From a bacterium (lineage in GTDB: Bacteria > Hydrothermota > Hydrothermia > UBA1063), in NCBI GenBank assembly GCA_030019025.1, contig JASEFR010000001.1, positions 17,761 to 56,420 on the forward strand: a stretch of 38,660 nt of DNA, written 5' to 3'. Positions 22,418 through 26,328 of this stretch are shown here, one piece after another. The translations under genes were made by a program, and so were the position numbers. Positions within the stretch are counted from its first letter, which is position 1. Every line of letters begins with the position of its first letter. Under the pieces are notes generated by a model. That model did not search any database and had not been told where the DNA came from. It saw only the letters and a list, made by a program, of their open reading frames with translations.

Positions 22418-22459
22418 AAAACCAAAATGGGCGGGAGAGATCCCGCCCATTTTGGTTTT
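22418..22459. terminator. Bidirectional intrinsic terminator
   Basis: A perfect 19-bp inverted repeat (22418-22436 / 22441-22459) with a GAGA loop and a GGGCGGGA core is bordered by AAAA on the left and TTTT on the right. Each strand therefore reads as a hairpin plus U-run. It fills the whole gap between the stops of the transporter and the clp gene. Confidence 0.92.
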
Positions 22460-25458
22460 TACTCTTCCTTATCTAATTTTTTGATTTCAAATTCGTTTCC
22501 TGCGGCGTCAATTAGGATCGTATCGCCATCTTTAAATTCGTTCTTTAGAAGCATACTGGAGAGTTTGTTTTCTATTTCTTTCTGAATCAGCCTCTTGAGT
22601 GGTCTTGCGCCCATCGTTACGTCAAATCCCTTCCTTGCAATCAAGGAACGGGCAGTATCACTCAGCTTTAGTTTAATGTTCCTTTCTTCAAGTCTCTTTC
22701 TCAAATTGTCGATGAGGATGTCCACAATGGATAGTATCTGGTCCCATTTTAATGGATGGAACACAACGATTTCGTCGATACGGTTAAGAAATTCTGGTCT
22801 GAAGTATCTGTGCACACTTTCGAGAACGAGTTCCTTTGCCTTGTTAAAATCTTCTTCAAACTCTTTTTCCAGTTGTTCTCTTTCTTTACTGAGTCTTTCT
22901 ATTTCTTTTTTATAATACTCTTCGTCAATCAGATTCTCCTTCTTCTTTTCTTCGAGGGCCTGCATTTCAGAAAGAATTTTATCATATTTTGCATTGAACT
23001 TGTTGGAGACTTCTCTCAGGTATTCACTTCCTATGTTAGAAGTCATTATGATTACCGTATTCCTGAAGGAAACAGTTCTACCCTGGGAATCTGTAAGCCG
23101 TCCATCATCCAATACTTGCAGGAATAGGTCAAATACCCTCGGATGCGCCTTTTCAATTTCGTCGAGGAGAATCACCGAATAGGGTTTTCTTCTTACCGCC
23201 TCGGTAAGTTTACCACCTTCCTCATACCCTACATAACCTGGGGGAGCACCAATAAGTTTTGCAATAGAGTGTTCCTCCTTAAATTCTGACATATCAAGTC
23301 TTATGAGTGCATCCTCGTTACCGAATAGAAATTCTGCAAGGGTTTTGGCAAGTTCAGTTTTTCCAACCCCAGTGGGCCCAAGGAATAGGAAAGTTCCGAG
23401 AGGTCTTCTTGGATCAGATATTCCGGCTCTAGCTCTTCTTATGGACTCTGAAACTGCAGTTATGGCCTCATCCTGGGCAACTACTCTCTTGTGGAGATAG
23501 CTTTCCATGTTCAGGAGTTTGTCTTTTTCTTCTTCCATCATCTTAGACACAGGTATTCCTGTCCAGCGAGAAATTACCTCAGCAACATCTTCGTAAGTAA
23601 CTACTGGTTTTGTTGTTTCCTTTTGCTGGGATTTTGCTTTCTGCAATTCTTTCTTGACTTTCTTTAATTCATCTATGACCTTTTCCCATTCTTCAATCTT
23701 ACCTTCTTTGTCTAATTTTTCAGCTTTTTCTTCAAGCTCTTTGATTTTAGCTTCCAGAGATTCAATCTTGCTTTTGTCAGCGGTTTCGCCTTTTACTTTA
23801 ATAGCTTTCCTTGCACAGGCCTGATCAAGAACATCTATCGCCTTATCGGGAAGATTTCTGTCCTGCACATATCTGTGTGAAAGCTTAACTGCAGCTTCTA
23901 TAGCTTCGTCTGAAATTTGTACCTGATGATGCTCTTCGTATTTCGGTTTCAAGCCTTTCAAGATCTGGATCGTGCTTTCAATATCAGGCTCCTCAACCCA
24001 AATGGGCTGGAATCTCCTTTCAAGGGCTGGATCTTTTTCAATGTATTTTCTGTATTCTTCCGGGGTAGTCGCCCCTATGACCTGGAATTCACCACGGGCC
24101 AAGGCTGGCTTAAGGATATTGCCGGCATCCATGGCACCTTCGGCTCTTCCAGCGCCGACGATATTGTGGATTTCGTCGATAAACAATATTACATTTCCAG
24201 CTTCTTTTACCCCGTTAATAACGTTTTTGAGTCTCTCCTCAAAGTCGCCCCTATACCTTGTGCCTGCGAGTAAACCCGCCATGTCAAGCTGAAGAATCCT
24301 CTTGTTTTTAAGCAGTTCTGGAACTTCACCTTTAACAATTTTTTGAGCGAGTCCCTCAACAATTGCGGTTTTTCCAACTCCTGCTTTACCCACTAAAACA
24401 GGATTGTTTTTCTGCCTTCTTGATAGTATTTCTATCATCTGTTCAATTTCCTGCTCCCTTCCTATGACGGGGTCAAGTTTCCCTTCTTTGGCAAGTTTGG
24501 TTAAATCAACCGTGTACTTTTCCAGATCCGGTTTTTCTATTTCCTGAAGTTCACTTTTAACATCTTTCATATTTTCCCTCCTAATATTTTGTAATGATTG
24601 CAAAAGCTGTGAGAGATAAAAACCTCCCACGCTGGAAGTGTTGTTTTTAAGAGCGTCTATTATGCCTGAGATGGTAATTTCACCGTCTTTCTCTGCGTCC
24701 TTTAGGATTTTTTCGAGGTAAAAAGAGTTCTTCACTTCCGGACTTTTGCCATTGATCTCGTATTTCAGTCTTAAAACTATTCTCCTTGAGTCAATGCCAT
24801 TATGATAGAGGTCTACGAGTGTTGACTGCATTCTGTCTTCCATGTCGGTAAGGTCATATATGACTTTATTAGTGGATTCTTCGTCTAAGGAGTGTTGTCT
24901 ACAAACTTCGCGAATTTTATTAACGAAAGACCTAGGCACTCTGATAGTCTCTTCTCGCATCACCCAGTTTCCTGTCGATTCTTGTGGGAAAAATTCCTCA
25001 AAGAAGTCTGAAAAGAAATCTTCCAATATTGAAAAAGTCCTTGACCTTGTTGGGACCCACCTCCTCACTCTAAGAGTAGCGAAGTCCCTTTCCCGTTCAC
25101 CTTTGGCTTCTTTTTCAAGCTGAGTGATAAGGTGATCGAGGAAGGCTTCCATTATTGATTTAGCGAAGGAGACTCCGTGCCTTTCTGATAATTCCCCTTG
25201 CTTTGAGAGCAAAGCTTCTTTAAAGGAATCGGTGATTTTCGAGATCTGGTTCTGAAGATTCGATATGATTTTCTCAATTTCCCTTTCCGCGGCATCGGGG
25301 TTAACTTCGTGCTCCAAAAGCCATTTTCTAAAGGGGTTATCTTCTTTGACTTTAAATAGCGCAAGCAGAAGATGGTCTGTATCAACAACGAAGTCTTTAC
25401 GCCCTTCTGCCAATGACTTTGCAAAATTTAAAATTTCTTGCACCTTTTTATTTTCCAT
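22459..25458 (-). CDS. Clp/Hsp100 AAA+ ATPase (ClpB/ClpC-like) with enlarged N region and coiled-coil insertion
   Basis: 999 aa, longer than ClpB (~860) or ClpC (~820). A first Clp_N-like repeat lies at ~1-65 and a possible second repeat at ~245-290, with about 170 extra residues between them. NBD1 has Walker A GKAGVGKT (357-364) and Walker B ILFIDE (424-429). A short middle coiled coil is at ~555-615. NBD2 has Walker A GPTGVGKT (694-701), Walker B ILLDE (763-767) and sensor MTSNIG (805-810). Between MTSNIG and FRPEFLNR there are ~55 extra charged residues (~815-870) predicted as coiled coil, where ClpC-type proteins carry the ClpP-docking loop; no (I/L/V)GF is seen there. A disaggregase role is therefore more likely than a protease one. 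A Shine-Dalgarno GGGAGG precedes the ATG. Confidence 0.92.
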
Positions 25459-25484
25459 TTCAACCTCCCAAAAGTGTTTTTTAG

Positions 25485-25512
25485 ATTATAGCGATTTAGT
25501 ATGAATTGTAAA
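25485..25512 (-). promoter_or_regulatory. clp gene promoter
   Basis: On the minus strand TTTACA (25507-25512), 16-bp spacer, TATAAT (25485-25490), with a ~20-nt leader holding GGGAGG. No CIRCE-type inverted repeat is seen, so heat-shock control by HrcA is not supported here. Confidence 0.6.
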
Positions 25513-25658
25513 GGTCTTTTGAATTTAAAGAAGGATATAAAGAACCTCGGTGGGCATTTAAAAACTATTGTTTTCTCTGTGTATCAGGATAGATTTTGGT
25601 GCTGAGTTTCTAATGCACACAGCTTTTATAATAGAAATCATTGCAGAGTTCTTACCAC

Positions 25659-25687
25659 TTGAAAGTTTGTGGGTGAAGTGTTATTAT
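25659..25687 (+). promoter_or_regulatory. tRNA-Asp promoter
   Basis: TTGAAA (25659-25664), 17-bp spacer, TATTAT (25682-25687), about 14 nt before the mature tRNA. The 14 bases at 25683-25696 recur exactly before tRNA-Gln (26212-26225). The rest of the ~200-bp spacer from the clp promoter (25513-25658) holds nothing I can assign. Confidence 0.5.
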
Positions 25688-25701
25688 TATACTACTTACA
25701 C

Positions 25702-25777
25702 GGGGCCGTAGTTCAGCCTGGTTTAGAACGCCGGCCTGTCACGCCGGAGGTCGCGAGTTCAAATCTCGTCGGCCCCG
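25702..25777 (+). tRNA. tRNA-Asp (GTC)
   Basis: Full cloverleaf of 76 nt: acceptor GGGGCCG pairs with CGGCCCC (25770-25776), D arm GTTC/GAAC, anticodon arm CCGGC-CTGTCAC-GCCGG with anticodon GTC, T arm CGAG(TTCAAAT)CTCG and discriminator G. CCA is not encoded. A T6 run follows directly and could act as a weak terminator. The GIY-YIG start codon is only 11 nt after the mature 3' end. Confidence 0.95.
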
Positions 25778-25788
25778 TGTTTTTTGTT
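25748..25788 (+). repeat. Direct repeat, left copy (3' part of tRNA-Asp and flank)
   Basis: 41 bp identical to 26063-26103; covers the variable and T arms, the acceptor 3' strand and the T-rich flank up to the base before the GIY-YIG ATG. Confidence 0.9.
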
Positions 25789-26031
25789 ATGCCGTTTTTC
25801 GTCTACGTCATCCAGAGTCTATCCACAGGTAAATTTTACATAGGGCATACAAACAATCTTAAGGAACGACTCAGACGCCATAACCAGGGAAGGTCGAATT
25901 ATACTCGCAACAAGGGTCCTTGGAAACTTGTTGCCTACAAGATATTTGATACAAGAAGAGAGGCTATGCATTTTGAAAAAAGGTTAAAGCGATTGAGTCG
26001 CGAAGATGTCCTCAAAGAAATACTGACGTAG
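25789..26031 (+). CDS. Small GIY-YIG nuclease
   Basis: 80 aa, a single GIY-YIG catalytic domain like the YhbQ/UPF0213 group: VYVIQS (5-10), KFYIGHT (15-21), the catalytic-type Arg in LKERLRRHN, and Glu63 in AMHFEKRLKR. I chose the ATG at 25789; the frame is open upstream, but that part is tRNA. No Shine-Dalgarno is present. The start lies 11 nt beyond the tRNA-Asp 3' end, so processing of a tRNA-mRNA transcript would give an almost leaderless message. The stop codon TAG is made from the first bases of the truncated tRNA copy downstream. It may be a homing-type nuclease of the element it sits in; a repair role is the alternative. Confidence 0.85.
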   Translation: MPFFVYVIQSLSTGKFYIGHTNNLKERLRRHNQGRSNYTRNKGPWKLVAYKIFDTRREAMHFEKRLKRLSREDVLKEILT

Positions 26032-26092
26032 CCTGGTTTAGAACGTCCCCCGTGACGGGGGAAGGTCGCGAGTTCAAATCTCGTCGGCCCCG
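26031..26092 (+). pseudogene. 5'-truncated tRNA-Asp copy with altered anticodon arm
   Basis: Matches tRNA-Asp from the middle of the D arm to the discriminator base. The acceptor 5' strand and the D-stem 5' strand are replaced by the GIY-YIG 3' end. The anticodon arm reads TCCCC-CGTGACG-GGGGA; its loop lacks the U at position 33. It cannot fold a normal acceptor stem, so I regard it as a non-functional remnant. Confidence 0.75.
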
Positions 26093-26103
26093 TGTTTTTT
26101 GTT
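26063..26103 (+). repeat. Direct repeat, right copy
   Basis: 41 bp identical to 25748-25788, offset 315 bp. Confidence 0.9.
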
Positions 26104-26189
26104 TATGGGGTGTTTTTCATTTAAATATTATTCTGATATTGGCCGACATGTACTGAAGGCAATTTAACTCTTCGAGGCGTTTTGTGGAG

Positions 26190-26219
26190 TTTACAGTCTT
26201 TATCCTTTAAAATTATTAT
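26190..26219 (+). promoter_or_regulatory. tRNA-Gln promoter
   Basis: TTTACA (26190-26195), 18-bp spacer, TATTAT (26214-26219), close to the tRNA 5' end. It shares a 14-bp block with the tRNA-Asp promoter. Confidence 0.4.
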
Positions 26220-26224
26220 ACTAC

Positions 26225-26296
26225 TGGGGCGTCGTCCAACTGGCAGGACACAGGATTTTGGATCCTGCAATCGTGGTTCGAATCCACGCGCCCCAG
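26225..26296 (+). tRNA. tRNA-Gln (TTG)
   Basis: Acceptor TGGGGCG pairs with CGCCCCA (26289-26295); D arm GTCC/GGAC; anticodon arm CAGGA-TTTTGGA-TCCTG with anticodon TTG; T arm CGTGG(TTCGAAT)CCACG; discriminator G. CCA is not encoded. U at the first acceptor position is typical of tRNA-Gln. Confidence 0.95.
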
Positions 26297-26328
26297 TGAT
26301 TTTTAGAGTGCCCTGGTGATTTTTAGAG
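26289..26328 (+). repeat. Imperfect 20-bp tandem repeat covering the tRNA-Gln 3' end
   Basis: Two adjacent 20-bp units (26289-26308, 26309-26328), 17 of 20 identical, sharing GTGATTTTTAGAG. The first unit contains the tRNA acceptor 3' strand. Confidence 0.7.

Follow-up and report, generated by a model that had tools for sequence, protein, structure and literature searches.

A small GIY-YIG nuclease gene between tRNA-Asp and its relic: a probable member of a selfish family nested in bacterial RNA genes

Introduction

SegB is a free-standing GIY-YIG homing endonuclease of T4-like phages which, according to excerpts from its description, cuts inside tRNA genes at the motif RAWTSGAAC and drives the tandem amplification of tRNA segments (PMC13096335). 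The motif resembles the complement of the consensus for the T arm, and in T4 the SegB gene lies within a tRNA cluster, between tRNA-Arg and tRNA-Ile. Integrative elements and genomic islands of the tRNA-targeting kind use tRNA genes as sites and keep a complete tRNA. Short dispersed palindromes are found as REP/RAYT systems and as rickettsial palindromic elements; RAYT, a tyrosine (Y1) transposase, is thought to be the mobility enzyme for REPs.

Here we analyzed a stretch of bacterial DNA of 38,660 nucleotides (the window, to which positions refer), in which an 80-codon GIY-YIG gene lies between a tRNA-Asp gene and a damaged copy of the same tRNA. We consider it likely that the window holds one member of a widespread, minimal selfish family of the homing type that is nested in essential structured-RNA genes. 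Searches of the open-access literature turned up no account of small GIY-YIG genes that are nested in tRNA genes and accompanied by relics, nor anything useful on a link to the 178-bp repeats of E. coli tyrT, and this small family of selfish DNA in essential RNA genes is apparently undescribed.

Results

The locus in the window is composed of the following features.

25701 to 25778, plus strand: intact tRNA-Asp(gtc) gene (ARAGORN; Rfam RF00005 at 69.2 bits in locus L001)
25748 to 25788, plus strand: left copy of a 41-bp direct repeat, made of the 3' part of the tRNA and the spacer up to the nuclease start codon (repeat search)
25789 to 26031, plus strand: gene for an 80-aa GIY-YIG nuclease, a UPF0213-like bare catalytic domain (translation; PF01541, E 3e-20; 1zg2, E 4e-12)
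26027 to 26093, plus strand: tRNA-Asp relic (repeats in register at +315; alignment to the intact tRNA; 88% genome match)
26046 to 26062, no strand: 17-bp palindrome TCCCCCGTGACGGGGGA in place of the relic's anticodon arm (sequence and position)
26063 to 26103, plus strand: right copy of the 41-bp direct repeat (repeat search)
26104 to 26120, plus strand: what may be the decayed beginning of another nuclease copy (weak resemblance to the start of the gene)

A sequence-only reading of this DNA had recognized a complete tRNA-Asp on the left, which ARAGORN confirmed, and a GIY-YIG gene as the sole content between the repeats. The latter also held: the unit contains this one ORF and no other, and hence no integrase gene. 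The 315-bp offset of both repeats and the 41-bp length of the longer one were correctly given, but the shorter block is 16 bp (25715-25730 and 26030-26045) instead of 15 bp. The right copy had been described as truncated in the acceptor 5' strand and in part of the D arm. In the relic, the D arm has indeed lost TTCAG and the 5' acceptor strand is gone, and the T arm and 3' acceptor strand are intact; what had been overlooked is that the 17-nt anticodon arm, CCGGCCTGTCACGCCGG, was exactly swapped for a palindrome of equal length. The TAG stop codon of the nuclease gene (26029-26031) coincides with the conserved T8-A9-G10 of the relic tRNA. The tRNA-Asp gene at 25701-25778 was the sole intact copy found in the assembly, and the relic was the only other match. 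The nuclease frame is open across the entire tRNA-Asp (25669-26031), and automatic annotation could call a 120-aa protein here, the N-terminal part of which would be translated tRNA-Asp.

The window protein scored 72.7 bits against PF01541, for which the curated cut-off is 22.6 bits, placing it in the GIY-YIG superfamily, and the family consensus retains the Y-x-Y-I, Y-I-G, Arg and Glu positions. Its best solved relatives are the small UPF0213 proteins 1zg2 and 1ywl, with which it has a bare domain of ~80-100 aa in common. The match to 1zg2 (BH0048) covered residues 3-72 with an E value of 4.4e-12 and, judged by sequence, the protein is a member of UPF0213 (single-domain proteins of ~80-100 aa related to BH0048). 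In the open-access literature we found neither a function for UPF0213 nor a link to RNA genes. Longer relatives with frames of ~200 aa (L071, L074 and L076 in genome G147) form a clade of their own, with no RNA gene found nearby.

Within the genus of the window, a homologous gene was found at tRNA-Asp in genomes G003 (79% identical over matched residues) and G001 (76%). Both genomes carry a relic with the palindrome TCCCCCGTCACGGGGGA at the same site as that of the window and, directly after the relic, a truncated second nuclease copy, suggesting that the ancestral form in the genus was probably a tandem array. The window element is probably the remains of a tandem array as well, and the few similar bases left at 26104-26120 may represent the start of its second nuclease gene. 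G001 has an additional upstream 5' relic with the same palindrome type at the end of the contig. The nuclease genes of G003 and G001 differ by a dN of 0.03 and a dS of 0.67, as would be seen if the protein were under purifying selection; comparisons of the window gene with its relatives in the genus were saturated for dS, and dN/dS is therefore given for this pair only.

Empty sites with a single tRNA-Asp were found among relatives of G446 (upstream likeness 68-78%); in these, a terminator-like hairpin, with no nuclease gene, comes after the tRNA-Asp. A syntenic empty allele of the window locus, however, was not found in the genus: G004-G007 have a clean tRNA-Asp in other genomic contexts, and G002 has no tRNA-Asp match whatsoever, probably owing to an assembly gap. 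The cassette of tRNA-Asp, nuclease and relic is oriented oppositely in G003 (L002) and in the window (22459-26297) relative to a Clp-type ATPase gene and tRNA-Gln; therefore, an inversion has occurred at this locus within the genus.

Using the window protein as the query, we collected 195 loci with 245 distinct genes; most of the genomes surveyed are metagenome assemblies. The hosts belong mainly to three phyla, WOR-3 (the window), Bacteroidota (G149) and Desulfobacterota (G147). The expectation that the 80-aa family would lie next to tRNA genes in related genomes proved right: 133 of the 195 loci have a tRNA or tmRNA gene found by ARAGORN no more than 500 nt away, on the same strand in all 133 cases, although this association of 68% applies to the relatives of the window protein, not to small GIY-YIG genes at large, because the collection was seeded by a tRNA-linked query. 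As a control, 1.3% of random positions were within 300 nt of a tRNA (800 kb, two genomes). The RNA gene is upstream of the nuclease in 105 loci and downstream in 28, and in 20 of the latter the stop codon of the nuclease falls within the RNA gene. The unit had been thought to carry a replacement 3' part of the tRNA; the part that is duplicated can be the 3' one, with the intact tRNA upstream, or the 5' one, with the intact tRNA downstream. No RNA gene was identified at about a quarter of all loci.

Tandem arrays of 2-5 units were found, with a period of about 306-350 bp and one intact tRNA at one end, such as five 315-bp units in G446 and three 317-bp units in G284. Each of these two arrays is on a single long contig, indicating that they are not an artefact of fragmentation. 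Some arrays include relic units without a nuclease. At L103, nine tandem tRNA-Asp/Gly genes, many of them ~101 bp apart, lie by palindrome-marked relics and a nuclease gene. Taken together, the co-directional association with tRNAs across phyla, the arrays of 306-350 bp and the empty sites uphold the proposal of a selfish unit of ~315 bp in tRNA genes, but that proposal had missed the arrays as well as targets other than tRNA, namely tmRNA, RNase P RNA and free-standing hairpins. A phage or plasmid origin was rejected: weak matches were present in only 9 of 50,697 phage records and 10 of 72,556 plasmid records, and a scan of viral contigs confirmed no relatives.

We then analyzed the relics. 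A relic of the adjacent tRNA was present at 98 of 130 distinct tRNA loci (163 relics) and was not detectable at 32, whereas shuffled tRNAs gave 0 of 130, which excludes chance. In a strict count that required arms of at least 6 nt and excluded the arms of intact tRNAs, 95 of the 163 relics, at 65 of the 98 loci, carried a palindrome not found in the intact tRNA, compared with 14.9 relics expected from shuffling. The palindromes replace recurrent segments of the tRNA across unrelated genomes and isotypes. The whole anticodon arm is replaced in Asp, Pro, Val, Gly and Lys (boundaries at 28 and 46 or equivalent), and its 5' half in Asn and others (boundaries at 24-25 and 35-36); the T arm is partly replaced in Asp (boundaries at 51 and 60), and part of the D arm elsewhere. 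There were 64 different palindromes over the 65 loci, with TCC at the tip in 44. Their interiors vary between loci yet mostly still pair, suggesting that it is pairing, not sequence, that appears to be kept. At L217, several different palindromes are stacked in the D loop of a single tRNA relic. Palindrome-marked tRNA-Asp relics without a nuclease were found at L325 and L327, and the relic at L325 has palindromes in the anticodon arm and the T arm alike.

The relic in the window could also be explained as the decayed second gene of an ancestral tRNA-Asp tandem, with the nuclease having arrived by unrelated recombination. Identical tandem tRNAs are indeed found near some family genes (L103), and a complete tRNA-Pro stands on either side of the nuclease in L006. 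This explanation is hardly credible to us, given that the cuts and palindrome marks of relics from unrelated genomes and isotypes fall at the same tRNA positions, that relatives of the window at the order level carry one clean tRNA-Asp, and that single-copy RNase P genes are occupied likewise.

Loci without an ARAGORN match were screened against Rfam. RNase P RNA was found at six loci (L018, L045, L209, L233, L243 and L247), and tmRNA adjoined the nuclease gene at L047, L052 and L057 and was about 1 kb off at L212. Group I introns were found near four loci (L029, L042, L056 and L226), which may form a bridge from intron homing to RNA-gene elements. No Rfam group I intron was present at the RNase P loci or tRNA array loci searched, and a self-splicing intron around the ORF was looked for in L001 and L002, with no intron match. 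Five of the RNase P genes have the ORF between long inverted repeats in what we take to be the P3 loop, by comparison with the layout of type A RNase P; in L045, it lies in a different stem-loop.

Genomes G206 and G190 provided an occupied and an empty RNase P allele. The 22-nt loop of presumed P3 in G190 is replaced by ~306 bp in G206, and the flanks are 97% identical (305/314 upstream and 447/458 in the RNase P body). A single RNase P gene was seen in G206, so the interrupted copy has to be functional or to undergo processing. Occupied and empty target sites were thus seen in this pair and in tRNA-Asp of G446 compared with its relatives, and homing fits such alleles, the target specificity and the identity of the protein as a GIY-YIG nuclease.

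An inverted repeat scoring at least 13 surrounds the gene at 12 of 47 usable non-tRNA loci, whereas 0.05 were expected. For two of these palindromes, short copies that lack the nuclease are dispersed in the genome, 51 in G138 and 10 in G132; reversed control patterns gave 0. Those of G138 have the form CC(C/A)GCACATA..TATGTGC(G/T)GG, and some lie within another's loop. At L209, the RNase P gene contains the nuclease-bearing form of the palindrome and, at a second place, a short copy. These data, together with the P3 insertions between long inverted repeats, argue for an explanation in which the hairpin is the mobile unit and is mobilized by the small GIY-YIG nuclease, in the manner proposed for REPs and RAYT. 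Full copies would hold the nuclease in the hairpin loop, short copies would be bare palindromes, and RNA genes would be targeted for the hairpin loops that they encode. There is overlap with the homing explanation, the difference being in what moves. In the tRNA arrays, however, the nuclease is beside the palindrome and not inside it, and the sequence of the palindrome varies by locus (64 of 65 distinct). The palindromes were also rejected as a genome-wide repeat in hosts of the tRNA type, as none comparable are dispersed in the sampled parts of G446 and G003. We regard a mobile hairpin as possible, and hold to it only tentatively.

In L132, short inverted repeats flank a related nuclease inside a gene that, judged by eye, appears to encode a protein, possibly of the four-helix-bundle (23S intervening-sequence) type.

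The relation of nuclease lineage to RNA target was analyzed on a tree of 190 proteins, the alignment of which has few columns, so that single branches are unreliable. The RNA target changed 59 times on this tree compared with 106 times after shuffling (shuffle minimum 98), and the palindrome site changed 16 times compared with 21.9 (shuffle minimum 18). The RNase P copies of two phyla cluster closely. Since target and site changed less often than in the shuffles, nuclease lineage predicts the target, with repeated switches; on the sequence evidence, such a match is what homing would require.

It could be argued that the nuclease has been domesticated and works for the host, with tRNA processing, the control of gene dose or recombination at RNA genes as conceivable roles; strict co-orientation with the RNA gene and the low dN/dS within the genus would agree with this. 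But its presence is patchy (15 of 60 relatives), the RNase P allele is empty in a genome nearly identical to an occupied one (G190 and G206), the nuclease switches among RNA targets, and copies are amplified in tandem and broken. We therefore judge a domesticated function very unlikely.

Discussion

Our data support a mobile selfish family with specificity for RNA genes. In the mechanism that we propose, the element would consist of a bare GIY-YIG nuclease of ~80-85 aa residing in the genes of many tRNA isotypes, of tmRNA and of RNase P RNA. The nuclease would cut one arm or loop of an intact target gene for such an RNA, possibly recognizing hairpin structure itself in place of a separate DNA-binding domain, and repair would copy the element into the cut site. 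The spare RNA-gene sequence brought in would leave one functional RNA gene, and the host would survive. The split copy would become a relic in which the cut arm is swapped for a palindrome, so that it would no longer be a functional or cleavable target, and repeated rounds or unequal exchange would produce tandem arrays. The likeness to a miniature integrative element, suggested by the sequence-only reading, was not borne out: because there is neither an integrase nor an att-type site, we model the element as homing-like instead.

Several points argue against the homing model: the intact adjacent tRNA retains the arm that should be the target, a mark of resistance need not be a palindrome with a covarying interior, a relic was not detectable at 32 of the 130 tRNA loci, about a quarter of all loci gave no RNA gene, and the genus yielded no syntenic empty allele of the window locus. 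The palindrome would be either the mark of a destroyed target or itself a mobile end, and the RNase P and G138 data favor the second for part of the family. We entertain with reserve a new class of mobile elements in which hairpins are moved by a bare, structure-recognizing GIY-YIG domain into the hairpin loops of RNA genes and into each other. Somewhat speculatively, the targets of this class might be tRNA arms, tmRNA and P3 of RNase P, with the nuclease borne by autonomous copies, either inside the hairpin or next to it, and with short copies dispersing through the genome. Such a class would provide a mobility enzyme for dispersed palindromes without RAYT.

If the homing explanation is true, a selfish element of ~300 bp, close to the minimum for a mobile element that encodes a protein, exploits highly essential and conserved bacterial genes and persists by supplying its victim with spare parts. 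It would then become testable how dispersed palindromes move without a transposase, and by what means specific RNA genes are found by a nuclease that has no DNA-binding domain. The family recurs in many uncultivated lineages and breaks assemblies, and it may lead to misannotation of tRNAs and to proteins that are read across tRNA genes.

Among known systems, SegB shows the nearest behavior, its gene being, like that of the window, a GIY-YIG nuclease gene among tRNAs. SegB differs in that it is phage-borne and has 221 aa, compared with 80 aa for the window protein, and neither a tRNA relic nor a palindrome is described in the excerpts from PMC13096335. Homology with SegB beyond the Pfam domain was rejected, as BLASTP gave no alignment with the window protein at E ≤ 100. 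Group I introns with GIY-YIG homing endonucleases likewise have their endonuclease ORF within structural RNA genes or next to them. The window element has in common with tRNA-targeting integrative elements that a tRNA gene is the site and that a complete tRNA is kept; unlike them, the family described here has no integrase, has a unit of ~300 bp and a palindrome-marked relic, and also occupies RNase P RNA and tmRNA genes. A resemblance to REP/RAYT systems and rickettsial palindromic elements is seen in some genomes: in G138 and G132, short palindromes are dispersed and a related enzyme gene is flanked by the same palindrome, but the sampled parts of G446 and G003 have no comparable dispersed ones. 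The enzyme, moreover, is a GIY-YIG nuclease and not a tyrosine (Y1) transposase, and arms of tRNA relics are replaced by the palindromes.
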